From NCBI GenBank assembly GCA_030699125.1, contig JAUYKM010000006.1, positions 1-33,155 of the forward strand: a DNA stretch of 33,155 bases, in the 5' to 3' direction. This stretch comes from Candidatus Daviesbacteria bacterium (GTDB lineage Bacteria; Patescibacteriota; Microgenomatia; Daviesbacterales; UBA10151). The translations under genes and the position numbers were made by a program. The notes below the pieces were generated by a model. It was not told where the DNA came from and searched no databases. It was given only the letters and a program-made list of their open reading frames with translations. Below are positions 2 to 30,671 of the stretch, piece after piece. Numbering within the stretch: the first letter of the stretch is position 1; every line of letters starts with the position of its first letter.

Positions 2-2488
2 ACTATATCCACCATTTCTTCTACCCCTGCCGGCAACTATACTATCTCAGTTAATGGCTCACCTTCTGCTGCTGCTAAAAATACCTGCACTCTCACTATT
101 CCCCCTCCCGGGTGCACACTTCCCACAGTAGATATTAAGGCCAATAGCTCTGACGGTCCTGTTAATATTGCTAATAACACTTCGGCAAATCTTACTTGGA
201 CTACTGGCAATTCTCCCACCTCATGTACTGCCTCCGGTGCCTGGTCAGGAGCAAAATCAGTCAGCGGAGGTTCTCAGTCATCTGGCAATCTCCCTGGACC
301 AAACAGCTATAATTTCACTATTACCTGTTCCAATACTTGTGGTTCCAATTCCGATGTAGTAACAATCAATGTCCCCTCACCGAGTACTAATTGCAGTTTT
401 GGCAGTCTCTCCAATCCGGACGGGATTTCCCCCAATCCTGTTCCCTACAACTCCTCCACCTCTACCTATTCTAATACTCAGATTAGCTGGAGCACCGCCT
501 CCTATAACAGCAGTAATGTCTACTATTATAATCCCGGCAGTTGTACTCTAAGTAATTGTCCGTCCAGCGGCTGGACTTTTATCACTTCTGCTCCCGCTGA
601 TGGTACCTGGGATTATGTCTGGAATCCCAACTCTTTTGGTCCCGCCCAAGGCTCTACTCACACCATTGGTATTACTGATTCCAACAATGTTTTAAGATGC
701 GTCAAAGATGTTACTTTTGGCTCCTCCACCCCTCCTCCAGCTTCTTCCAGCTGCACTGGTATTTCCGGACCAAATACCCTGCTTTTACAAGGCGGAAAAG
801 CCACAGGCACGTATGCTGCCAACTTTGGCGGTGATAGTACCAATTTAGTATTCCACTGGAGTGACAATCAAGGCAGTACTGATGATACAGTCGACAATGA
901 TGTGAATTGGACCTTCTATAATACCGGCTCCTATACCCTTTCTGCCACCTATTCCAATGCCACTGGTTCAGGCTCTTGCGGCTCAAAAAATATTCAGGTA
1001 GTCCAACCCAGTTCAATTTGTGCAGAATTTGATGTTACCCCAGATCCAACTTATGTTAATACAAATGCAATAATAAGACCTCTTGTTTCTAACTATTCTA
1101 TTATCTCCAGAATTGATGTTCGTTACTATAAATATCCCCAGCCAGCTGCTCCTCCATTTACAGAAAGTAATTGGCAATCAATAAAGACGCTTCAGGGTAC
1201 ACAACACTGTGTTAGCGGGCATGTAGTAGAATCCGATGGTGAACCTGATGAATTTATTTGTGATGTTTATGATCCAAATACTTTTGATTGGACTGAGAAT
1301 CAGAAAACTACTGATTGGAAAACACCTAATTACGAAGGATATTATTATTTAGGGATGGAGGTTTACGGTGCGGATGGTACTAAAATTGCCGGCTGGAACA
1401 GCGGTGATACCACAGACTGTACTGAGGTTATTCGTATTCGGGATGATAGTACCTGCATACAAAATAAACCTGTATACCCGGATAACCTTAACGCTTCTGT
1501 CATAAATGATGACGATGTACTGCTGCAATGGCAGATAAGAAATAGCAATGGTAGCGTAAACGACTCTGAACAAGCTTATATAAGCACTCAAGCAGGATTT
1601 ACCCCATCCTCCTCAAACAGGGTGGTTTCCCGTCTTAAAGCAGGCAGTAGTTTATCTGTTACAGATAGCTCTTCCACACTTTCCAATTTAAAAAATCCTG
1701 TCTTTTATAAAGTATCTGCTTTTAACAATGCTTCTCCTGGTGAATCTCCGTTCTCCTCCACTCAAGGTATGGCACCCTTACCTTTTGATACAGATACTTG
1801 TTCCTTAAGTAGTAGTCCAACAACAGCTACTAATTTTAATATCTCTGGTAGTACTTTTACCTGGAGGAAACCTTCTATTGCCTTTGCTACATATAGTGGA
1901 TGGAGAGTGGTAAATAATAATGGTTTAATCTTTGATGTCCCGGCTAGTGAGGTAACCGAAAGTTTTTATGACTCAAATAATAGGCAAATCACCTGGACCA
2001 TGCCCACTCTAATAGCAGGTACTTATTATATCCAGGCTTATGCCGTTTTATGTGATGGAAAAATGTATTTTGGACCAATCTCTAATACAGCTGTCTTAAG
2101 TACCTCAACTAGTGCTGCCTCAGCCCCCACCACAGCCCCATCAGGAGTTACTACCACCATGGGTGGAGGTTTTAAAGACCAACAACCTGTTATCACCAGC
2201 TGGACTGATACTAATACTAATGAAGCTGGTTTTCACCTTTATAGAAGTACAGAATCGTTAGATCCTGCAAAGAGAACAGCAGCTACAAATTATTCCCTTA
2301 ACAATGCTCTTTTTGAGAACCTGCCTGCCGGAACTTATTACCTGGCAGTTAAAGTGACTAATAATTGTGGGGTTGGCTGGTCAAATTATGTAAAAGTTGA
2401 TTTGACTTTGACCGTCAAGCCCTGGATTCAGACCACTGGCGGAGATGTCCATTCCAATGTTAGAATTAATACACCGGGAGGACCATGA
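2..2488 (+). CDS. Ig-like/FN3-like surface protein, 5' truncated by window edge
   Basis: The frame is open from base 2 to the stop at 2486-2488 (828 codons), so the real start lies outside the window; the GTG at 902 is internal. The composition is rich in Ser, Thr, Asn and Gly with scattered Cys, as in secreted beta-sandwich proteins. An Ig-like module near the left end (VDIKANSSDGP, then a TCTASG stretch and TCSNTCGS) matches a type common on CPR surface proteins. Two fibronectin-III-like segments lie at about residues 495-590 and 730-805 (for example EAGFHLYRST then LPAGTYYLAVKV). The protein ends with PWIQTTGGDVHSN, a tail I recall from CPR extracellular proteins. It has no C-terminal membrane anchor. 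The stop overlaps the next start as ATGA, suggesting coupled translation. It is probably an adhesin or envelope protein, but the ligand cannot be read from sequence. Confidence 0.8.
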   Translation, partial: TISTISSTPAGNYTISVNGSPSAAAKNTCTLTIPPPGCTLPTVDIKANSSDGPVNIANNTSANLTWTTGNSPTSCTASGAWSGAKSVSGGSQSSGNLPGPNSYNFTITCSNTCGSNSDVVTINVPSPSTNCSFGSLSNPDGISPNPVPYNSSTSTYSNTQISWSTASYNSSNVYYYNPGSCTLSNCPSSGWTFITSAPADGTWDYVWNPNSFGPAQGSTHTIGITDSNNVLRCVKDVTFGSSTPPPASSSCTGISGPNTLLLQGGKATGTYAANFGGDSTNLVFHWSDNQGSTDDTVDNDVNWTFYNTGSYTLSATYSNATGSGSCGSKNIQVVQPSSICAEFDVTPDPTYVNTNAIIRPLVSNYSIISRIDVRYYKYPQPAAPPFTESNWQSIKTLQGTQHCVSGHVVESDGEPDEFICDVYDPNTFDWTENQKTTDWKTPNYEGYYYLGMEVYGADGTKIAGWNSGDTTDCTEVIRIRDDSTCIQNKPVYPDNLNASVINDDDVLLQWQIRNSNGSVNDSEQAYISTQAGFTPSSSNRVVSRLKAGSSLSVTDSSSTLSNLKNPVFYKVSAFNNASPGESPFSSTQGMAPLPFDTDTCSLSSSPTTATNFNISGSTFTWRKPSIAFATYSGWRVVNNNGLIFDVPASEVTESFYDSNNRQITWTMPTLIAGTYYIQAYAVLCDGKMYFGPISNTAVLSTSTSAASAPTTAPSGVTTTMGGGFKDQQPVITSWTDTNTNEAGFHLYRSTESLDPAKRTAATNYSLNNALFENLPAGTYYLAVKVTNNCGVGWSNYVKVDLTLTVKPWIQTTGGDVHSNVRINTPGGP

Positions 2489-4212
2489 TGGGAATTAGAA
2501 TCAAGCAACTGGAATTAAGAATTAAGGTCTTTTTAAGCTTTTTCATATTAGCTTTATTCTTTACTGCGACAGCAGGAGCTGTGCTCATTCTTTATTCTTT
2601 ATTCTATCACCCTACCTTTGCTCAAGTTCAAAGCTGCGGCTCAGTTACCACCCAGCCCAGGGCACAGGGACTGGTGTCCACACAAACTGTCACAGGCAAA
2701 TTTTATACTTCATCCGGGGGCTGTATTGTCGATGAAAGAGCTTCTTTTGTCTCATTCAGAATACCTGACTATGACAGATTAAAATCACTCTATTTTACTC
2801 AGGCTAAGGAAAGTGGTGCTTTAAAGAAAATTGCCATTACGGGTAATGCCACCCAGGGCAGTTTAAGTCTGACTACCAATACCGCAGCTCATATCAGTGG
2901 GAATATGAGCTTATCCGGCAATATCTCAGGTAGCGCCACCGGTATTATCTTTATTGACGGCAAACTGGATATTACCCAAAACTTCGCTTACGGCGGGGGA
3001 AATTACGGGGTAGTATTGGTGGTCAAAGGTAATGTGGTGATAGCTCCGACTGTCAACACGGTGAATGCGGTCATTATCTCCGAGGGGGTAATTTATACAG
3101 CCGGAGAATTTTGTTCCACCAGCTCCACCAACGCTCCTCAACTGACCATCAATGGCAGTCTTATTTCTCTTAATCCGGACAGCCGGATCAGGTTTTGCCG
3201 CAACCTGACAGACAACAGTCTGCCTGCTGAAATCATCAACCACCAACCAAAATATGTGGTCATTTTAAGAAATATCTTCTCGGAAAAGTTCAGAAAGTTT
3301 TCCGAAATTACCGGCACAGCTCTTCCAGCAACGTCTCCCTCTCCCACCACTCCTACTCCTACCCCAACTTCCACCCCAACTCCTACTCCTACCCCAACAA
3401 GCACTCCCACACCAGCCCCCACTTCTACTCCTACTAACTGTTCTGATAATGCAGGGGTAGTAACTTGCAACTATGCTGGTACTCAACAAACATGGGTTGT
3501 ACCAACTGGTGTAACTTCTATTAGTGTCGACGCCAAAGGTGCCCAAGGAAGTAATGGTAATCGAGGTGCAATTGGTGGAAAAGGGGCGCGTGTCATAGCA
3601 ACCATTAGTGTTACTGCAGGAGAGACTTTGTATATCTATGTAGGCGGACAGTCTCTTGGGAGGTCGGGTGGATATAATGGAGGAATGACAGGCGGCACAG
3701 ATCCATCAAGTGATCTTGCCGGAGGTGGCGGAGGTGCATCCGACATCCGTAAAGGCGGTACAGCGATTAATAATCGTGTTGTGATTGCGGGTGGCGGTGG
3801 TGGCGGCGGTTCGGAATGTTCCGCATGCTTAAACAGAGGAGGATCAGGCGGAGCTGGTGGCGACCCTCTAGGTAAGATTGGATCAAATGGAGCCGGAACT
3901 TATAGAGGATACGGCGGCGGTGGTGGTACTATGACTGGCGGCGGAAGCGGAGGTGCAAGCGGTGGGGGTGCTTCAACTGCAGGTTTTAGTCCTGTTAGTG
4001 CTGGTAGTGGTGGAACTGGAGGAAATGGCGCTGGCAACGGTGGCGGCGGTGGCGGCGGCGGTGGCGGCTATTATGGCGGTGGCGGCGGCGGTGGCGGTGA
4101 TAATGCCGGCAGTGCTGCTGGCGGTGGCGGTGGCGGTGGCGGATCCAGCTATGGTGATACATTTACCAGCGGCTATCAAAGTGGTAACGGTCAAATTATT
4201 ATCACATATTAG
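2485..4212 (+). CDS. Signal-anchored protein with Pro/Thr linker and glycine-rich C-terminal domain
   Basis: The protein has 575 residues. A hydrophobic segment at about 13-40 followed by HPTFAQ looks like a signal peptide or signal anchor. Residues 50-275 are repetitive beta-type sequence (GNMSLSGNISGS, IFIDGKLDITQNF, VLVVKGNVVIAP) with the look of a beta-helix or polymer-forming domain. A linker of Pro-Thr-Ser repeats covers about 282-315. The rest begins TWVVPTGVTSISVDAKGAQG and becomes extremely Gly-rich, matching the glycine-rich family PF12810 by recognition. The start ATG overlaps the upstream stop (ATGA). The pairing suggests two parts of one surface structure. The upstream protein ends at a tail that in related proteins I would expect to continue into a beta-helix region like this one, so the pair may descend from one split gene (inference). 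Confidence 0.8.
   Translation: MMGIRIKQLELRIKVFLSFFILALFFTATAGAVLILYSLFYHPTFAQVQSCGSVTTQPRAQGLVSTQTVTGKFYTSSGGCIVDERASFVSFRIPDYDRLKSLYFTQAKESGALKKIAITGNATQGSLSLTTNTAAHISGNMSLSGNISGSATGIIFIDGKLDITQNFAYGGGNYGVVLVVKGNVVIAPTVNTVNAVIISEGVIYTAGEFCSTSSTNAPQLTINGSLISLNPDSRIRFCRNLTDNSLPAEIINHQPKYVVILRNIFSEKFRKFSEITGTALPATSPSPTTPTPTPTSTPTPTPTPTSTPTPAPTSTPTNCSDNAGVVTCNYAGTQQTWVVPTGVTSISVDAKGAQGSNGNRGAIGGKGARVIATISVTAGETLYIYVGGQSLGRSGGYNGGMTGGTDPSSDLAGGGGGASDIRKGGTAINNRVVIAGGGGGGGSECSACLNRGGSGGAGGDPLGKIGSNGAGTYRGYGGGGGTMTGGGSGGASGGGASTAGFSPVSAGSGGTGGNGAGNGGGGGGGGGGYYGGGGGGGGDNAGSAAGGGGGGGGSSYGDTFTSGYQSGNGQIIITY
4041..4143 (+). repeat. GGTGGCGGC-type tandem glycine codon tract
   Basis: Runs of GGT and GGC codons inside the glycine-rich domain form an imperfect trinucleotide and nonanucleotide repeat. 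It is in frame and codes Gly with a few Tyr, Asp, Asn, Ala and Ser. Such tracts are prone to length change by slippage in multiples of three. Confidence 0.8.
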
Positions 4213-8071: not shown

Positions 8072-9117
8072 GAGCGTCTTTCAACCAAAAAGGAAGCCAT
8101 CTCAGTTAAAAGTTTATCCAGATCTTTATCCTGGGTAATCTCCGGGATGACTGCTTTGGCAGCTTTTACATATTTTACTGCCTTCGCCTTTGAATAATCA
8201 AGAGAGCCGGTATCTGTAAAAACCTGCCTGATTTGCTCTAATTTCTTATCATCTATCTTACCCTGACCATAATATTTAGCAAGAACCTCTTTTTGTTCCT
8301 GATTGACCCTCTTTAAAGCCTCTGTTATAAGCAGAGTATTTTTGCCCTCCTCAATATCTGAGGTAACAGATTTACCTAATTCCTTTTCCTCCCCAAATAC
8401 TCCCAAAATATCATCCTGAATCTGAAAAGCAATCCCCAAATTATCTCCATACTCACCCAAAGCATCCATTAAACTTTCTTCGGCACCACCCAAAATAGCC
8501 CCAATCATTAAAGGGCCGGAAATAGTATATTGTGCAGTCTTAAGATGCATAATTTTAATAACATCTTCTTCTTTTCTTTCTCCCCCCAAATGAGGCAATT
8601 CCACATCCAGAATCTCTCCCAGGCCCGTATCCATCATCATTTTACTGACAATTCCAATAGCTTGATTTTTCTCCTGATCCTGAAATTTTGATTTACTGAT
8701 AATTGATAAGCATAAAAAAAAGCCGATATCAGCAAGTCCTATGGCCTGGGATACACCATAATGATCTCCACCTAAAACTTGATAAAGAGTTTTTTGACCT
8801 CTTCTTAACTCGGATTTATCGATAATATCATCGTGAGCCAAGATTGAAGCGTGAAGTATCTCCAAAGCCGCTCCAACCCTTATTATGTCTGATGACTGAA
8901 GACTGACGACTGACGACTGATTTGCTATCTCATACCCTAACTTAACCAATGTTCCCCTAATTCTTTTACCCCCTTTACAGGCATTAATAAAAGCCAGGCT
9001 CAGCGGAATCAGCTTGGGATATTCTTTCTTAATACCTTCAAACCACTCACTCAGAGTCTGATCTACTGCCTCATCAATTTTGCCGGCATTAGCTTGTAGA
9101 TAAACCCTAAAATCCAT
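8068..9117 (-). CDS. Polyprenyl (FPP/GGPP-type) diphosphate synthase
   Basis: A trans-prenyltransferase of 349 residues that condenses isopentenyl diphosphate with allylic diphosphates. The first Asp-rich motif is in ILAHDDIIDKSELRRG and the second in AFQIQDDILGVFG; GGKRIRG near residue 50 is the usual diphosphate-binding segment. The residues before DDIID that set chain length are small or aliphatic, so product length cannot be decided. An in-frame repeat tract (8890-8920) encodes SSVVSLQSSD at about residues 66-76, between two N-terminal helices. Its product would feed UppS. It has a promoter in the 66-bp space shared with ispH. Confidence 0.92.
   Translation of the reverse strand: MDFRVYLQANAGKIDEAVDQTLSEWFEGIKKEYPKLIPLSLAFINACKGGKRIRGTLVKLGYEIANQSSVVSLQSSDIIRVGAALEILHASILAHDDIIDKSELRRGQKTLYQVLGGDHYGVSQAIGLADIGFFLCLSIISKSKFQDQEKNQAIGIVSKMMMDTGLGEILDVELPHLGGERKEEDVIKIMHLKTAQYTISGPLMIGAILGGAEESLMDALGEYGDNLGIAFQIQDDILGVFGEEKELGKSVTSDIEEGKNTLLITEALKRVNQEQKEVLAKYYGQGKIDDKKLEQIRQVFTDTGSLDYSKAKAVKYVKAAKAVIPEITQDKDLDKLLTEMASFLVERRS
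8890..8920. repeat. In-frame GACTGA-type repeat in polyprenyl synthase
   Basis: Repeats of TGACGAC and GACTGA encode SSVVSLQSSD in the minus-strand gene. Related tracts occur at 12520-12550, 22650-22721 and 26665-26698. Confidence 0.65.
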
Positions 9118-12139: not shown

Positions 12140-12841
12140 TTACTCGGCCGTTTTCTCCGGACCCTGGTTATGGTGAGTTTCTATAAACTTTTTTATTCTT
12201 TCTCCATCAAACTGATTAAGCTTATCAATATATACCCAGGCTGTTAGAGCAATCCTGGAATCCAGACTTGGGCGGGGCACAATAATCAGTCTTTGGAACT
12301 GATCCAAAAAGGCTGACAGCTGATTTATTAGATTCTTACACTCCTCAGTTTGAAAATTTTCTGACAGTTCCACTTCCACCGGTGGTGGATTATCCGGCAT
12401 AAAGAAACTTGTGGCCGTATTTGCCGTCACCATCATCCTGGTTAATGGTTTAATCCCAGCCGAGTCTGTAGCCACATCATGAATCTCCACACTCTCTCCT
12501 TCATGTGCATATGCTTGTATGACGACTGACGACTGAGAGCTGACGACTTCTTTATCACAATTATATGAAATTATTACATATCCGTGTTCCAAAGAGTGGA
12601 TCAGATAACCATCAGATAAAACCCGATCATATACTCCTTTTTTGGCCCAGACAGGAAAGTGGGACCCGGATGTGGGAGGATTGGAATTGTATTCAAAATC
12701 TGAGATATCTGTAATATGTTCTCTGCCTAAATCTGCTATCTTCTCTCCAGGCAGAGGTTGGTTTGAGGCCATAAACAGCCAGACCAAAAACCCTCCGATT
12801 GCTAAAACTGCGATACCAATTAAAATAATTCTATTGTTCAT
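12140..12841 (-). CDS. DUF3105 membrane-anchored protein
   Basis: A 233-residue protein with one N-terminal membrane segment (about residues 4-25) and an extracellular DUF3105 domain (PF11303). Signature motifs are YNSNPPTSGSHFPVWAKKGVY, written here as two adjoining parts YNSNPPTSGSH and FPVWAKKGVY, then IHSLEHGYVIISYNC, IVPRPSLDSRIALTAW and FIETHHNQGPE. Conserved His, Cys and acidic residues suggest metal or thiol chemistry, but no function is established. Repeat tract 12520-12550 adds SSQSSVV in frame at about residues 97-107. It abuts ccdA with no gap. Confidence 0.85.
   Translation of the reverse strand: MNNRIILIGIAVLAIGGFLVWLFMASNQPLPGEKIADLGREHITDISDFEYNSNPPTSGSHFPVWAKKGVYDRVLSDGYLIHSLEHGYVIISYNCDKEVVSSQSSVVIQAYAHEGESVEIHDVATDSAGIKPLTRMMVTANTATSFFMPDNPPPVEVELSENFQTEECKNLINQLSAFLDQFQRLIIVPRPSLDSRIALTAWVYIDKLNQFDGERIKKFIETHHNQGPEKTAE
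12520..12550. repeat. In-frame GACGACTGA-type repeat in DUF3105
   Basis: A tract of TGACGACTGACGACTGAGAG type, read as VVSSQSSVV in the minus-strand gene. It belongs to the same family as 8890-8920, 22650-22721 and 26665-26698. Confidence 0.6.
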
Positions 12842-14386: not shown

Positions 14387-14459
14387 TGTCATCCCGTACT
14401 TGATACGGGATCCATAAATAATATTTATTAATTGGATCCCCGCCTACGCGGGGATGACA
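14387..14459. repeat. Palindromic repeat pair, intergenic
   Basis: Two stem-loops point toward each other: a GTCATCCCG...CGGGATCC unit and a GGATCCCCG...CGGGGATGAC unit. A short AT-rich palindrome lies between them. This is the same family as the in-gene copies at 17087, 24302, 26452 and 29835. It separates pth from the dsbA operon. Confidence 0.8.
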
Positions 14460-15827: not shown

Positions 15828-15898
15828 TGTCATTCCTGCGAAGGCAGGACTCTATACCAATAATTATTTATGGATCCCGCATCAAGTGCGGGATGACA
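15828..15898. repeat. Palindromic repeat pair at gene junction
   Basis: A GTCATTCCTGCG...GCAGGA unit and a GGATCCCGC...GCGGGATGAC unit form a pair. One end contains an alternative ATG of the inositol-phosphatase gene (15833), and the other holds the last codons and stop of the phosphoribosyltransferase gene (Ser-Ser-Arg-Thr-stop at 15882). Confidence 0.8.
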
Positions 15899-16511: not shown

Positions 16512-17882
16512 TTAATCAAACAATCCTAACTGCGGAGCTTCTCTTTTTTCTTCTTCCATAGTCTTTTCTCCATGATTCCAAATCTTCACCACTCCATAGA
16601 CTCCATCATAGCCCGGATCTATTACTAAATTTCCTCCTCTTACACGATCCACTCCTTCTGCTATCCTCTCCCCTGAGATTTTAGCTATCTCATCTATGGA
16701 AATTTTGGTTAAAACCTTAATTTCTCCACCTAAAGTAGTTACTAACTTTTTATACTCATTTAGCACCCTTTGGCTTGTTGGAGCATTACCAAACGCCTCT
16801 GCTATTACCTGATGCAGCGGCACCAGCATTCTATATCCTGGTCTATTAGGATACTTTGTGGATTTAATGATTCCTTCCTCATTCCTAGTTCCTAGTTCCT
16901 CATTCGATCGCCCTGCGATCTTCTCCACCCTTTCCATCACCCCCACTGTTAATCCTCTTTTACAGACAGGGCAGATGGTTCCCTTAAGCTTAGTATCATC
17001 CGGAGTATATTTAACATTGCAATTCCGGTGGCCGGTATAGTGATATTTACCCTCTTCCGGATAAAACTCGATGGTCCCAACCACCTTGTCATCCCCGCGT
17101 AGGCGGGGATCCAATTCCGAACTAGACCCTGTTAATTGGATTCCTGCATTCGCAGGAATGACACTGGGTTTAGCTATTGCTCTCCAGAAACCATCATAAG
17201 TAAATTCTCCTTCAAATACTGTAGACTCCCGCCCTAAATTTGGTAAAGAGTGCGCATCGGAAAAAGAGACAATGGAACGGTTATCTAACTCCTTAATCCG
17301 CCAATTCATGGCCGGATCAGATGACAAACCTGTTTCCACCCCATATATGTACTGCGTTAAATCCTCAAAACACTCCTCCAGAGAGTCGTATCCGGATTCA
17401 GATCCAAATATGCCGAACCAGGGAGTCCAGGCATGACTAGGCACAAAAATAGCCTTATCTGATGCCTCCAGAGCCAATCTCAATAATTCTTTAGAAGGAA
17501 TTCCCACAATAGGCCTGCCATCTGATCCCAATGTTGCCCTTCTTACCAGAAGTGATTTTTGGAAGACTTGGGCTGAGGCAAAATCAGGCATAAAAATTAG
17601 GTTATGCACTCTTCTTCCTCTACCATTTTGAGAATACATGGAGGCTATCTCCACTGTTAAAACAAACTTTATTTCAGATCCATCTTGGGTTAGGAATCCA
17701 GATCCATCCTCTGTCAGATCCTTTTTCAGTTCGGCAAGCCAAAGCGGGTGTAAAAAATCCCCAGTCCCTAAAACATTAATTCCTTTATACTTTGCCCATT
17801 CAACTAAATTTGGGATATTAAGTTGCGGTGAACAGGCTCTGGAATATCTAGAGTGAATATGTAAATCAGCCACATAGGACAT
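16512..17882 (-). CDS. EndoQ-like PHP-domain DNA endonuclease
   Basis: A 456-residue protein from the ATG at 17882; an ATG at 17891 is possible but overlaps a TAAAAT box. The N-terminal PHP fold has DLHIHSRYSRACS, TGDFLHP, FVPSHAWTPWFGIFGSESG and SFSDAHSLPNLGRES. A zinc-ribbon-like part (GHRNC, then CPVCKRGLTVGV, MERVEKIAGR) and RPGYRMLVPLHQVIAEAFG complete the TIGR00375/EndoQ pattern. Archaeal EndoQ nicks DNA 5' of deaminated bases (uracil, hypoxanthine), so a base-damage repair role is likely. A palindromic repeat pair is inserted in frame at about residues 240-265, between the PHP domain and the zinc part. Confidence 0.85.
   Translation of the reverse strand: MSYVADLHIHSRYSRACSPQLNIPNLVEWAKYKGINVLGTGDFLHPLWLAELKKDLTEDGSGFLTQDGSEIKFVLTVEIASMYSQNGRGRRVHNLIFMPDFASAQVFQKSLLVRRATLGSDGRPIVGIPSKELLRLALEASDKAIFVPSHAWTPWFGIFGSESGYDSLEECFEDLTQYIYGVETGLSSDPAMNWRIKELDNRSIVSFSDAHSLPNLGRESTVFEGEFTYDGFWRAIAKPSVIPANAGIQLTGSSSELDPRLRGDDKVVGTIEFYPEEGKYHYTGHRNCNVKYTPDDTKLKGTICPVCKRGLTVGVMERVEKIAGRSNEELGTRNEEGIIKSTKYPNRPGYRMLVPLHQVIAEAFGNAPTSQRVLNEYKKLVTTLGGEIKVLTKISIDEIAKISGERIAEGVDRVRGGNLVIDPGYDGVYGVVKIWNHGEKTMEEEKREAPQLGLFD
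16877..16905. repeat. In-frame CCTAGTTCCTAGTT-type repeat in endoQ
   Basis: Tandem copies of CCTAGTT encode RNEELGTRNEEG on the minus strand, in the linker between the zinc part and the C-terminal RPGYRM motif. Confidence 0.5.
17087..17163. repeat. Palindromic repeat pair inserted in frame in endoQ
   Basis: Two facing stem-loops, CATCCCCGCGTAGGCGGGGAT and CATTCCTGCGAATGCAGGAAT by type, each about 25 bp. On the minus strand it encodes VIPANAGIQ, a short spacer and LDPRLRGDD. The reading frame is kept. Confidence 0.85.
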
Positions 17883-22649: not shown

Positions 22650-22721
22650 AGCTATCAGCTGCCAGCTTTCAGTCATCAGACAAAATAAGTCTGATAGCTG
22701 AAGACTGATGACTGACGACTA
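22650..22721. repeat. Intergenic GATAGCTGA/GACTGATGA repeat cluster
   Basis: Mixed direct and inverted copies of GCTATCAG, CTGATAGC, TCAGTCATCAG and CTGATGACTGACGACT fill most of the space between carB and fic. The inverted copies can pair. It is the intergenic member of the family that is in frame at 8890, 12520 and 26665. Confidence 0.65.
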
Positions 22722-22751
22722 TTTTATTCTTGCACATTTCCCGCAAAAAAT

Positions 22752-25700
22752 CTAATTTTTAAGATACTCATCCCAGGATTTGATTCCTAAATCCTCTATT
22801 TTTTTGGAAGATATTGCAGAAATTAACAGTTCTGCAGATTGCAGGTTTGTGATCAGGGGAATTCCCAAATCAATGCAGCTTCTTCTGATTAAATAGCCGT
22901 CAGTCTCCCCTTTTTGAGAGCCTCCCTCAGAAATATTAATGGCCAGATCAATTTCTCCTTTTTTTAACAAATCCAAAACCGAGGGATATTTTTTCTCTGA
23001 TATCTTATAAACCCGAATATTCTTAATACCGGCAGATTGCAAGAATTGGTAGGTATGATCTGTGGCATAAATTTTTAAACCAATTGAGGTTAAATCAATC
23101 ATTGATGATAATATTTTTATCTTATTTTTATCCCCTCCCACTGATAAAAAAACTGATTTTTGGGGAATTTTAAATCCGGTGGCAATCATAGATTTTAGAT
23201 ATCCTTCTGCCAAATCTTCACCAAATGTGGCCACTTCCCCGGTGGAGGACATCTCCACCCGAAGTCTGGGGTCAGCTCCTTTGATTCTATTAAAAGAGAA
23301 CTGTGGTGCTTTAACAGCCACATAATCTAAATCTATGGTTTTAAAATCTCCCTCAAGTCTTTCTCCCAGCATCACCCGGGTAGCCATTTGGACAAAATTA
23401 TAGCCTGTTACCTTGGAAACAAAAGGGAATGAACGGGAAGCTCTTAAATTAAGCTCAATTACTAAAATTTCATTATCAATGGCCAAAAACTGAATATTAA
23501 ATGGCCCGTTGATGTTTAACTCTTTTAAAATCTCTCTGGTGGCATCTTTTATTCTCCTGACAGTTTCCAGATAAAGTCTTTGGGGAGGCAAAACCATCGT
23601 GGCATCACCGGAGTGAACGCCGGCATTCTCAATATGCTCGGAAATAGCATAAATCAATAATTCCCCATCCTGTGAGACTCCATCAATCTCAATCTCTTTG
23701 GCGCCCTCAATAAACTTGGAGATAACCACCGGATGCTCACTTGATATATCTGAGGCCTGTTTCAAATACTTTTTCAGATCAGTCCCTCCATAAGCCACAT
23801 TCATGGCTGAGCCTGATAAAACATACGATGGTCTGATTAAAACCGGATAGCCGATTTTTTTGGCAAACTTTAAAGCATCCTCAACAGCTTTTAAACTCAT
23901 CCATTCAGGCTGTTTTATTTTAAGTTTATCTAAAAGAGCAGAGAATTTATGTCTATCTTCTGCCCTGTCAATGGAGATTGGGGAAGTACCTAGAATTTTA
24001 TATCCTGCTTGAAAAGCTTTTAGGGCCAAATTATTGGGGACTTGTCCCCCAAATCCCAACAGAAGTGCTCCTTTTTCAATATCATAAATATCTGAAACTC
24101 TCTCAAAGGTTAATTCTTCAAAATATAATTTGTCTGCTAAATCATAGTCAGTAGAAACTGTTTCAGGATTACAGTTAATCATGATAGTTTCCAAACCTTT
24201 TGCTCTTAAACTTTGAGCTGCAGTCACCGCACACCAGTCAAACTCAACAGATGAACCAATCCTGTAAGGCCCAGAACCCAGGACAATTGCTTTGTGTGCA
24301 TTGTCATCCCGCCGAAGGGCGGGATCCAATTCCGACCGTGACTCATTTAATTGGATTCCTGCCCCTCGGTCCTGAGGACCTCGGGATCGAAGGACTTTCG
24401 CGGGAATGACATTTGGTGTCACTTCACTTTCTTCACCGTGATAAGTTAAATACAGATAGTTCGTTTTGGCCGGAAATTCTCCTGCCAAAGTATCAATATG
24501 TTTAACTCTAGGTACAATTCCCCATCTTTTTCTAAATTCCCTAATCTTTTCTTCACTTACTTTCAGATATTTTCCAATTATCTTATCTGAAAATCCCAAC
24601 TTTTTTGCTTCTAATAACTTGTTACTTGTTACTTGTGTCTTGTTACTTTGTAGATTTTTCTCAAAATCTACAATCTCCCTTATCTGGTACAAAAACCATG
24701 GATCAATCCCGGTTTGGCGATAAATCTTGTCCACCGAATCTCCCTTGGAAAACCTTTTGGCAATGGAAAATAATCTCTGTGATGTTGGCAACAGCATAGT
24801 ATCATCTACACTATTGGTAAGTAATCCATCTTGAGAGGTTTCCAGACTTCTAATGGCTTTTTGTAGGGCTTCAGGAAAATTTCTGCCTATGGCCATTACT
24901 TCTCCCACTGATTTCATTTCTGATCCAATCAAATGATGGGCTCCTACAAACTTCTGCAGATCCCACCTGGGAATTTTTACTACAATATAATCCAAAGCCG
25001 GTTCAAAAAAGGCAGAGGTTTTCTCTGTCACAGAATTTTTGAGCTCCGGCAGGTTGTATCCCAAACCTATTTTGGCCCCAATATAGGCCAGCGGGTAGCC
25101 CGTGGCTTTGGAGGCTAAAGCTGATGAGCGAGACAGTCTGGCATTAACTTCAATCACCCGGTAATCGTTGTTTTGAGGATTTAGGGCAAACTGGATATTG
25201 CACTCTCCCACAATCCCCAAATGTTCAATCACCTGTAAAGATAACTTGCGCAAAAATTGATATTGATAATTGTTTAGAGTTTGAGATGGAGCCACCACAA
25301 TGCTTTCCCCGGTGTGGATCCCCAACGGATCAAAATTTTCCATGTTGCAAACAGTGATCTTATTGTTGGCATTATCCCTCACCACCTCATACTCTATCTC
25401 TTTCCAATGTTTTAAATATTCCTCGCAAGCCACTTGAGGCGCATTCTTTAGGGCAGTGGAAACCATCTTGATTAGTTCATCCCGATTATGAACCACCCCT
25501 GAGCCTAAACCGCCTAAAGAAAAACCTAATCTAATAAGCAGCGGATAGCCCGATTTTTCAGCAATTTTTAAAGCTTGAGAGGTAGTTTTGGCAAATCCGC
25601 CTTTGGGTACTTTGACCTTAATTTCAGCCAAAGTCTTAGCAAATAATTCCCTGTCTTCAGTTGCTTCTATACTTTGAACAGGAGCACCCAAAACACGAAC

Positions 25701-26018: not shown

Positions 26019-27088
26019 AGGTAATCCAAAAATTCATCAAACAAATATCCGGCGTCAACCGGGCCGGGTGAGGCTTCCGGATGAAATTGCACTGCTAAAA
26101 ATGGTTTGCTCTTATGTCTGATACCCTCATTTGTGCCATCATTTAAATTAACAAACCACTCAACCCACTCCGAACTCATACTTTTCATATCCACGGCAAA
26201 ACCGTGATTTTGAGAAGTGATGATGGCTTTTTTGTTTGTCACATCTTGAACTGGCTGATTCTGACCTCTGTGGCCAAACTTTAATTTGTAGGTATCTCCC
26301 CCTGCTGCCAAAGCCAAAATCTGTGAACCCAGACAAATTCCAAAAATGGGAATGCCTTTTCTTAAAACTTCTTTAACATTTTTAATAGTTTCTCCTGCCT
26401 GTTTTGGGTCCCCGGGGCCATTGGAAACTACTACTCCATCAAAATCTACCCTGTCATTCCCGCGAATGCGGGAATCCATAAATTTTAAAGGATTAAAATT
26501 CCAGGGAACTCGAGTCACTCTTACTTTCCTTTTTACCAGGGATCGCAATATGTTTTCTTTTACTCCGCAATCAATCAGGACAATGTTTTTATTTCCTCTT
26601 CCATACACTTCAATCTTTTCTGTGCTCACCATCGGCAAAACATTTTCTGAATTAGGATCATATTGTCTGATAGCTGATAGCTGATGACTGATGACTATCC
26701 GACCCAGCATTACTCCATGTTCCCTTAATTTTATGGTGAGTTTTCTGGTATCTACTCCTTGTAGGGCTGGAATTCCCTCCTCCTTAAGCCACTGCCCCAA
26801 AGTTTTTTCCGATTCAAAATGTGATGGATTATTAATATAATTTTGCACAATTAAACCCTTAACTTGAATCTTTTTTGATTCCCAGAAATCTTTTTTAGGT
26901 ACTCCGTAATTGCCAACCAGAGGATAAGTTAAAACCAAAATTTGTCCAAAGTAGGAAGGGTCAGTAAAAGATTCAGGATATCCTACCATGCCGGTATTAA
27001 AAACCACCTCCCCTGAGGTGGATAAGGTGGCTCCAAAGGATTCGCCAACCATGGTTGTCCCGTCGGACAAAATTAATTTTCCCATCAT
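26015..27088 (-). CDS. carA: Carbamoyl phosphate synthase, small (glutaminase) subunit
   Basis: 357 residues. The amidotransferase domain has the nucleophile Cys in GIPIFGICLGSQILAL and the His/Glu pair in QFHPEASPGP. It supplies ammonia from glutamine to CarB. Two in-frame repeats are present: VISHQLSAIRQYD (26665-26698) in the N-terminal domain and MDSRIRGNDR (26452-26477), a single palindromic unit at about residues 204-212 just before the SNGPGDP motif. Overlaps of 4 bp with pyrB and carB show one operon. Catalytic residues are intact. Confidence 0.96.
   Translation of the reverse strand: MMGKLILSDGTTMVGESFGATLSTSGEVVFNTGMVGYPESFTDPSYFGQILVLTYPLVGNYGVPKKDFWESKKIQVKGLIVQNYINNPSHFESEKTLGQWLKEEGIPALQGVDTRKLTIKLREHGVMLGRIVISHQLSAIRQYDPNSENVLPMVSTEKIEVYGRGNKNIVLIDCGVKENILRSLVKRKVRVTRVPWNFNPLKFMDSRIRGNDRVDFDGVVVSNGPGDPKQAGETIKNVKEVLRKGIPIFGICLGSQILALAAGGDTYKLKFGHRGQNQPVQDVTNKKAIITSQNHGFAVDMKSMSSEWVEWFVNLNDGTNEGIRHKSKPFLAVQFHPEASPGPVDAGYLFDEFLDYL
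26452..26477. repeat. Single palindromic unit inserted in frame in carA
   Basis: CATTCCCGCGAATGCGGGAAT type stem-loop. The minus strand reads MDSRIRGND. Only one unit is present, in contrast to the paired copies elsewhere. Confidence 0.8.
26665..26698. repeat. In-frame GATAGCTGATGACTGA repeat in carA
   Basis: Repeats of CTGATAGCTGATAG and CTGATGACTGATGACT encode VISHQLSAIRQ on the minus strand. Same family as 22650-22721. Confidence 0.65.
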
Positions 27089-28614: not shown

Positions 28615-28837
28615 GGGCTACTGCCATTTGTGGAGGAGAGTTCTTAGTTACTTCTTTTTTGGCATAATTTATTGCTGCTTTAACCTGATCTTCAGTTATT
28701 TCATAATCCTCTGTTATTTGAGGGATTGTTTGACCATGTTCAACTAAATTTAAAATAAACTCCACAGTCAGTCTAGTCCCTTCTATGGTGGGCTTTCCAA
28801 CCATAATTTTAGGATTTCTCACAATTTTTGCTTTCAT
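28583..28837 (-). CDS. DUF433 antitoxin
   Basis: 84 residues. NPKIMVGKPTIEGTRLTVEF and EDYEITEDQVKAAINYAKKE match the DUF433 winged-helix family (PF04255), the usual DNA-binding antitoxin partner of DUF5615. Only 25 bp separate its ATG from that of the divergent gene at 28863, so both mRNAs must have very short leaders and may share a regulatory site. Confidence 0.88.
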   Translation of the reverse strand: MKAKIVRNPKIMVGKPTIEGTRLTVEFILNLVEHGQTIPQITEDYEITEDQVKAAINYAKKEVTKNSPPQMAVAHEIFTRRKHQ

Positions 28838-28862
28838 ATTGAGTTTATTATATCATGAATTT

Positions 28863-29495
28863 ATGTCTCAAAAAGGAATTAGTCCGCTAATTATTACCAT
28901 CATAGTGGCAATTGTGGCTATAAGCGTGGGAGGATTTATTGCCACCCAGACCAATATCTTTCCTTCCCCTAAATCTTCCCCCCAACCCTTCGACTCCGCT
29001 CAGGGCAAGCCAACCACTCAACCTTCCCCTACTACTAACCCCACTGCCAATTGGAAAACATACATAAATAATAAATCTGCTTATAAGTACCAAGTTAAAT
29101 ATCCATCAAATTGGCAATTACAAGAAACTAGTCCAGAATATGTAACTTTTTATCCTCCTGAGGTAAATTTAAATGCAGAGGGCGTAGGGACAATTGGAGC
29201 ACCTCCTAAGATTGGTATTCAAGTTTCAACTATGTCGATGAGTGAGCGTCCTACTGGAAATGAATCTAGACAAGGAATTGATTTTGTTACTGATTGGAAG
29301 AGGGTAAATGTTGATAGTGTAGATGGCATCTATTATCAGACTCACCAATGCGCACCACAATGTTCTTCGAATACTGTTTTACCTTTAAATAATGGTCAGC
29401 AATCTTTGGTAATAGCTATCTCTTCAGAAGCTCAAAGGCAAGGATATGCGCAAATTTACAACCAAATCCTTTCCACCTTTAAATTCCTACCTTAA
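28863..29495 (+). CDS. Membrane-anchored extracytoplasmic protein, PsbP-like fold possible
   Basis: 210 residues from the ATG at 28863; a longer frame from 28785 would run through the DUF433 gene. The N-terminus MSQKGISPLIITIIVAIVAI is a membrane anchor with the KG(I/F)SPLI pattern common in such genomes. A Pro/Thr/Ser linker follows and contains PFDSAQGKP, a known mobile-repeat peptide (28984-29010). The domain YKYQVKYPSNWQLQ...VTFYPPE to LSTFKFLP resembles PsbP/DUF1795-type lipoproteins; the function is unknown. It lies inside the segment bounded by the two recF 3' ends. Confidence 0.7.
   Translation: MSQKGISPLIITIIVAIVAISVGGFIATQTNIFPSPKSSPQPFDSAQGKPTTQPSPTTNPTANWKTYINNKSAYKYQVKYPSNWQLQETSPEYVTFYPPEVNLNAEGVGTIGAPPKIGIQVSTMSMSERPTGNESRQGIDFVTDWKRVNVDSVDGIYYQTHQCAPQCSSNTVLPLNNGQQSLVIAISSEAQRQGYAQIYNQILSTFKFLP
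28984..29010. repeat. CCCTTCGACTCCGCTCAGG repeat in linker
   Basis: Encodes PFDSAQGKP in the Pro/Thr linker. A related block is at 32720-32769 in mutM. It is GC-rich against an AT-rich background. Confidence 0.65.
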
Positions 29496-29543: not shown

Positions 29544-30671
29544 CTAAATAATCTTCCCATCCTCCACCCTTAAAATCCTACTCTGATCCAGGAAACTTTT
29601 GGGAATATTTTCCAGTTCTACTGTGGCAATAATGGTCTGTTGTTTACCTACTATTTCCACCACATGAGCTCTGTGGTTTGCATCCAGTTCTGAGAATACA
29701 TCATCAAGCAGTAGAATTGGCCTTTTCCCCAGGATTTTAGCCATATATTCCAGTTGGGCCAGCTTAAAAGCTAAAGTACCTGTTCTTTGCTCACCTCTGG
29801 AGCCATAGTGAGCCAAATTGCGCCCACCTTCCACTGTCATCCCCGACTTGATCGGGGATCCATTATTTGTATAGATTCCCGCTTTCGCGGGAATGACATT
29901 ATCGTAGATGACAATATCAAAATCATCCCTGTGTGGCCCAATTAAGGTAGCTGCCGCTGCCACCTCTCTTCCGTTTGTTTCAGCTAATTTTTCCACAGTT
30001 ACTAAACTTGGTAGATATTCAAATTTGAACCCACCTAGGGGAGTTTCTAAACCATTAATAAATTCAAAAAAATCTTGTCGCTTATCACTTATCACTTTGC
30101 CCTTGCTCACTAATTCTTCTGTCCAATACTCCAACTCGTCCACCCTTGCCTTTCCTTCCCTGATCTTTTTTAAAATCCTGTTTCTGGCTGTTAAGAATTG
30201 CTCATACTGAGTCAGTGATTTTTTATAATCAGGATCGACTTGTGCCAATCCTAAATCCAGGTGCCATCTCCTTAGAGATGGTGAACCTGTCACCATATTA
30301 ATATCCGAGGGATAAAAAATCACAGCCGGCAAATTTCCTATAAAATCAACTACTCTTCTTCCTATTCCATTAATCATCACCTTTTTTCTGAATGTCACTT
30401 CCTCACTTGGTTCATTGATAATAATTAAAAGTTCTGTCTCCGGATCATCCAAAAGCCCTTCCACTTTACAAAACTTTTCTCCTTCTTTAATTAATTCATC
30501 CTCTGTATCCACTCTTTGGGATTTGGTAGTAGATAGAAGATAAATGGCCTCCAATAAATTAGATTTACCTGCCGCATTATTTCCCACCAAAATAGTAGGA
30601 CGTTGGTCAAAATCTAAAGTAAGGGCAGAATAATTTCTGAAATTAGTTAAATTGATTTGCTTTAAAACCAT
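29544..30671 (-). CDS. recF: DNA replication/repair protein RecF
   Basis: 375 residues. An SMC-like ATPase that loads RecA at gaps. Walker A is GNNAAGKS (30-37), the signature is YGSRGEQRTG, and Walker B is RPILLLDDVFSELDA. A palindromic repeat pair (29835-29898) is inserted in frame at about residues 258-278 between IGPHRDDFDI and the signature motif, encoding VIPAKAGIYTNNGSPIKSGM. The C-terminus ends DGKII, shorter than the displaced remnant at 28135-28229. It is third in the run mutM-MFS-recF. Confidence 0.94.
   Translation of the reverse strand: MVLKQINLTNFRNYSALTLDFDQRPTILVGNNAAGKSNLLEAIYLLSTTKSQRVDTEDELIKEGEKFCKVEGLLDDPETELLIIINEPSEEVTFRKKVMINGIGRRVVDFIGNLPAVIFYPSDINMVTGSPSLRRWHLDLGLAQVDPDYKKSLTQYEQFLTARNRILKKIREGKARVDELEYWTEELVSKGKVISDKRQDFFEFINGLETPLGGFKFEYLPSLVTVEKLAETNGREVAAAATLIGPHRDDFDIVIYDNVIPAKAGIYTNNGSPIKSGMTVEGGRNLAHYGSRGEQRTGTLAFKLAQLEYMAKILGKRPILLLDDVFSELDANHRAHVVEIVGKQQTIIATVELENIPKSFLDQSRILRVEDGKII
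29835..29898. repeat. Palindromic repeat pair inserted in frame in recF
   Basis: Units CATCCCCGACTTGATCGGGGAT type and TTCCCGCTTTCGCGGGAA type face each other with an 11-13 bp spacer. The minus strand encodes VIPAKAGIY then SPIKSGMT; the second unit is read in a different phase from those in endoQ and carB. Confidence 0.85.

Follow-up and report, generated by a model that had tools for sequence, protein, structure and literature searches.

The recF gene of this Candidatus Daviesbacteria genome, which is of the Microgenomates type within Patescibacteria, contains a translated palindromic repeat, and this repeat is a CGTC-type REP, an ordinary member that behaves as its class is known to behave, residence in repair genes included. 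With a probability of roughly 0.85, it is a non-autonomous mobile element, i.e. a head-head (HH) pair of CGTC REPs, that was inserted into recF with the reading frame left open and is near-neutral and tolerated at the permissive tip of a hairpin. The literature searched held no report of REPs in Patescibacteria, and VIPAKAGI appeared in none of its texts. As far as this search extends, CGTC REPs and their gene-rich distribution in Patescibacteria are new, and so, above all, is a RecF turn lengthened by repeats. CGTC REPs with a high share of copies within genes are now placed in a streamlined candidate-phylum lineage absent from the 2013 survey of the class.

A pair of CGTC-type units in the recF coding sequence

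The window, meaning the whole stretch of 33,155 nucleotides that was analyzed, holds the recF element and several others of its type (Table 1). The 64-nt recF element, TGTCATCCCCGACTTGATCGGGGATCCA-TTATTTGTATAGATTCCCGCTTTCGCGGGAATGACA, consists of two inverted hairpin units with a perfect 8-bp stem in each. A preliminary description had placed a palindromic repeat at this site of RecF; its coordinates and its reading are borne out by the sequence and its translation, and the view that the repeat was inserted into the coding sequence and is translated is supported. Its folding energy as DNA is -17.6 kcal/mol, compared to -6.9 +/- 2.0 kcal/mol in shuffles (z = -5.2), none of which equals it. The window contains nine perfect-stem units versus 0-2 (mostly 0) in 20 mononucleotide shuffles. 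The number of copies in the genome speaks against both a chance palindrome and a native RecF loop palindromic by accident, and these readings were rejected.

Table 1. Coordinates of recF and of the CGTC-type elements in the window
Feature	Position	Strand	Remarks
recF (375 aa), intact and single-copy, which hosts the element	29544..30671	-	TIGR00611 271 bits
CGTC-type REP HH heterodimer in recF	29835..29898	-	Translated as (N)VIPAKAGIYTNNGSPIKSGMT; evidence: sequence, fold z -5.2, genome copies
Unit A of the recF element	29872..29898	-	TGTC-ATTCCCGC-GAAA-GCGGGAAT-CTA; CGTC-1 type, stem 8, loop 4; covariance model 41.1 bits
Unit B of the recF element	29835..29862	+	TGTC-ATCCCCGA-CTTGA-TCGGGGAT-CCA; stem 8, loop 5; covariance model 40.3 bits
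CGTC-type element in frame in carB	24302..24411	-	carB TIGR01369 match in two stretches
CGTC-type element in frame in endoQ-like gene (TIGR00375)	17087..17163	-	
Lone CGTC-1 unit in frame in carA	26452..26478	+	Read MDSRIRGNDR
HH dimer, intergenic	14387..14459	.	
HH dimer between two ORFs	15828..15898	.	Overlaps both ORF ends

CGTC REPs have been described as carrying a tag that reads CGTC or TGTC, a stem of 8-9 bp whose first bases are AT, a loop of 4-5 and a CCA tail, as forming HH dimers with the tags outside, and as frequently hosted by DNA-repair genes; according to Di Nocera et al. 2013, they have no dedicated transposase (PMC3733652). Both recF units display an unpaired TGTC tag and perfect 8-bp stems, with loops GAAA and CTTGA and tails CTA and CCA. 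HH dimers account for 25 of the 39 elements of the genome, 63 units at E<0.001 are dispersed over its contigs, and no dedicated transposase flanked by units is seen at the Y1_Tnp loci sampled in this genome and in its relatives. The element thus resembles the CGTC-1 and CGTC-2 families (PMC3733652) in its TGTC/CGTC tag, its 8-bp stem starting with AT, its loop of 4 or 5 and its CCA tail, as well as in HH dimers, intragenic copies (DNA-repair genes included) and the lack of a transposase gene flanked by units. It differs in that the recF dimer combines one loop-4 and one loop-5 unit; furthermore, Patescibacteria lie outside the five phyla listed there, and the text of that survey does not mention recF.

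Rickettsia RPE-6 and Neisseria dRS3 have been assigned to CGTC-1 (PMC3733652). Like RPE-4 and RPE-6 (CGTC-4 and CGTC-1 in R. conorii), the present repeat is a palindromic element found in frame in many unrelated protein genes, although the host lineage is unrelated and RPE-1 is longer and of different sequence. With Neisseria dRS3 it shares the class, whereas most Neisseria elements lie in large intergenic clusters and are not coding inserts. REPINs and BIMEs mobilized by RAYT (the GTAG class) also consist of two inverted short hairpins and are dispersed and non-autonomous, but they bear a GTAG tag where the recF units bear TGTC, and their RAYT genes are flanked by their own REPs, an arrangement not seen in this genome.

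A single CGTC-1 unit is open in five of its six frames, a stop closing the reverse one that ends in ...GAATGA; the 64-nt recF dimer is open in two of six, one of them in the sense orientation. The earlier statement that the element is open in more than one frame therefore applies to the single unit and, at best weakly, to the dimer. Forward units are read ten times in the VIPAxAGI frame, five times in the SFPRxRES frame and never in the CHSRE frame (p about 0.007, on small numbers). The second unit reads ...GSPIKSGMT in RecF, compared to ...LDPRLRGDD in endoQ and LDPALRRDD in carB, in agreement with the earlier remark that its phase differs from that of these two copies; the shift is due to the 5-nt loop of unit B and to a different spacer.

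An Rfam search on the recF element returned a sub-threshold match only, to the Francisella sRNA FtrB (RF02748; 32.3 bits for a gathering threshold of 66), which was rejected. This match is full-length (29824-29920, minus strand) and the FtrB consensus contains a GuCauuCcCGCGuAGGCGgGaauC hairpin, so FtrB may belong among the CGTC REP dimers.

Copies across the genome and a candidate mobilizer

A covariance model of the unit was searched over the contigs of the 1.13-Mb genome and the units were grouped by hand, giving 64 units in the 39 CGTC elements. Per sampled genome of the same taxonomic family, the number of units ranges from 0 to 33, with the present genome the highest, and one genome from another family of the class has at least 100. 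Eighteen of the 39 elements are located wholly within long ORFs, which belong to unrelated families, and another two lie where an ORF starts. The hosts recognized with Pfam/NCBIfam include RecF, CarB, CarA, an EndoQ-like protein, GuaA, AtpG (ATP synthase gamma) and MurB, together with a class I tRNA synthetase, a CCA/polyA polymerase, a glycosyltransferase, two O-antigen ligase-like proteins and a DUF359 protein.

Some units contain repeats within repeats: a second palindrome is nested in the hairpin loop in carB (24352-24411) and at G000:C4:72903-73009 and G000:C8:73183-73296, and in two of these three units it is GTCCTTCGATCCCGAGGTCCTCAGGACCGAGGGGC. Elsewhere in the genome (G000:C15:69600-71667, L170), an LVIVD-repeat protein with an intein splicing domain has a CGTC dimer at its predicted N-terminus.

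The genome encodes three Y1_Tnp (RAYT-like) proteins, whose sole NCBIfam match is NF047646 (REP_Tyr_transpos), below the cut-off. No CGTC units lie beside these three genes or the sampled Y1_Tnp loci of relatives, and no GC-rich hairpins were found around the three genes. Across 38 genomes, those with more Y1_Tnp genes tend to have more units (Spearman rho 0.58, p 1.5e-4, uncorrected for relatedness and genome completeness). This copy-number link is a testable lead on how CGTC REPs move, short of a demonstration of their mobilizer. We infer that mobilization occurs in trans, the best candidate enzyme being a RAYT-type HUH transposase. A wider proposal starts from the observation that, in Microgenomates, palindromic repeats of several unrelated families have landed repeatedly in one RecF turn, and adds that the CGTC REPs of this group are moved in trans by RAYT-type HUH transposases; taken as a whole, it is unlikely.

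The RecF protein and its permissive turn

The genome has one recF match. Its product scores above the TIGR00611 cut-off and has the RecF fold; the match to this model comes in two stretches, of which the first runs to residue 257. The translation reads GPHRDDFDIVIYDN-VIPAKAGIYTNNGSPIKSGMT-VEGGRNLAHYGSRGEQRT, with the insert between GPHRDD and GSRGEQR and with intact Walker A, signature, Walker B and D-loop motifs. The genome likewise encodes RecR and RecO, so the RecFOR set is complete. Named relatives of this RecF include those of Daviesbacteria, Gottesmanbacteria and Levybacteria.

The AlphaFold2 model of the window RecF (59 sequences) has a pLDDT of 93.4, with about 95 or more in the core. 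Two blocks over the insert average 54 and 52, and values below 50 occur in the insert only (260-264 and 275-280). The insert extends beyond the end of the strand 250-256, and the signature helix starts at residue 292 as usual, undisturbed. Foldseek gives a TM-score of 0.82 to the crystal structures 5z68/5z69 and of 0.86 to the integrative model 9a5q. The preliminary description had proposed comparing predicted structures with and without the insert; the comparison was made with the insert-free orthologue L021, whose model has the same secondary structure elements; the insert itself appears as a low-confidence loop. Given the preserved fold in AlphaFold2 and the presence of RecR and RecO, RecF with the insert most likely still folds and functions, the extra residues forming a floppy loop.

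The homologues were compared in a set of 30 genes from relatives and 80 from genome contigs, of which 106 were alignable. The segment from GPHRDD to the signature measures 52 residues in the window and 26 in most homologues (57 of the loops that were parsed). In the 106-sequence alignment, the turn after residue 255 has 367 inserted residues, the highest total of any site, and in 32 of the 106 sequences it is longer by four residues or more, which contradicts the initial claim that insertions are rarely tolerated near the signature loop. It had also been argued that orthologues with an equally long native loop of unrelated sequence would speak against the proposal; this objection has partial force, since L082 (+18), L108 (+31) and L101 (+50) have long loops with no likeness to the CGTC repeat.

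Different palindromic repeats have repeatedly extended one and the same RecF turn, independent inserts of other palindromic kinds being found there in at least seven other genomes. These are a GTCAT...AATGAC dimer in L028 (+27), a CGTC dimer with another stem in L207 (+35), CCCTGAGCGAAGTCGAAGGG in L013 (+7), CTTCGACAGGCTCAGG in L225 (+9), inserts of the CCTGCCGGCAGG type in L084 and L106, and a GGCCCGGGGCC palindrome in L213. In the two inserts for which dispersal was tested, that of L207 has dozens of matches throughout its own genome and that of L028 just four further partial matches. Hairpin-forming inserts also occur in other RecF turns (near residues 77, 85-90, 148 and 344). We read the repeated lengthening as survival at a permissive site. 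A single RecF hairpin tip takes many different repeat-encoded peptides, and RecF loops therefore record naturally the palindromic families that have been active.

In L024 (G031), a 27-nt unit (QSLRSDDLK) present three times in tandem lengthens the same turn.

Origin and retention of the insert

In the preferred scenario, a head-head pair of CGTC-type REP units, presumably moved in trans by the candidate RAYT-type HUH transposase, would have inserted into recF at the tip of the surface beta-hairpin between GPHRDD and the signature motif. Its length and phase would happen to leave the frame open. As 64 is not divisible by 3, a clean insertion would have put the gene out of frame, and the putative insertion event, whose precise course and boundaries are inferred, is assumed to have included a small junction duplication or deletion. 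The element would then be transcribed and translated into a flexible loop of ~21 residues, and RecF, judging from the model, would still fold and very probably work, so that selection would tolerate the insert. The insertion would owe its retention to the permissive hairpin tip in which it landed, and the recurrence of other repeats at this turn in other Microgenomates would reflect how few places in RecF take extra residues at little cost.

Several unrelated types of palindromic insert fall within a few residues of each other, which could indicate that this turn is a preferred DNA target, in sequence or structure, of several transposases, beyond mere survival of insertions. This is unlikely: inserts that form hairpins are held by the other RecF turns too, and the non-repeat loop extensions cluster at the same turn, a pattern that fits survival at permissive sites.

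It is quite unlikely that the insert is adaptive, altering RecF (its ATPase, dimer or RecR/DNA contacts) and hence repair or the mutation rate, a role that Di Nocera et al. speculated on for REPs in uvrABCD and recBCD genes (PMC3733652). The frequency of repair genes among REP hosts (PMC3733652) would agree with such a role, as would the decoration of the same RecF turn in about eight genomes of the class. However, the inserts at this turn have only their position in common and differ in sequence and in length (+7 to +35 aa), the hosts in this genome are mostly metabolic, wall and translation genes rather than repair genes, and AlphaFold2 predicts the loop to be disordered. Despite the 26-aa excess beside the signature motif, a recF pseudogene or a bypassed element is very improbable, the ORF and ATPase motifs being intact, the gene single-copy, RecO and RecR present and the predicted fold preserved. 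Under the preferred reading of a tolerated insertion, the insert would be near-neutral and RecF would have retained its activity.

The window contains other repeats as well. A different palindromic family occurs in coding sequence at 28985-29012 (ORF 28785-29495, plus strand), where CCCTTCGACTCCGCTCAGGG is read PFDSAQGKP; a near-identical palindrome is present in the RecF turn of L013. The direct repeat CTGATGACTGACGACT is dispersed at 8887-8920, 12517-12550, 22689-22722 and 26665-26698, the last copy lying inside carA. Finally, a long Gly-rich low-complexity repeat array (3708-4154) lies at the end of the ORF at 2485-4212.
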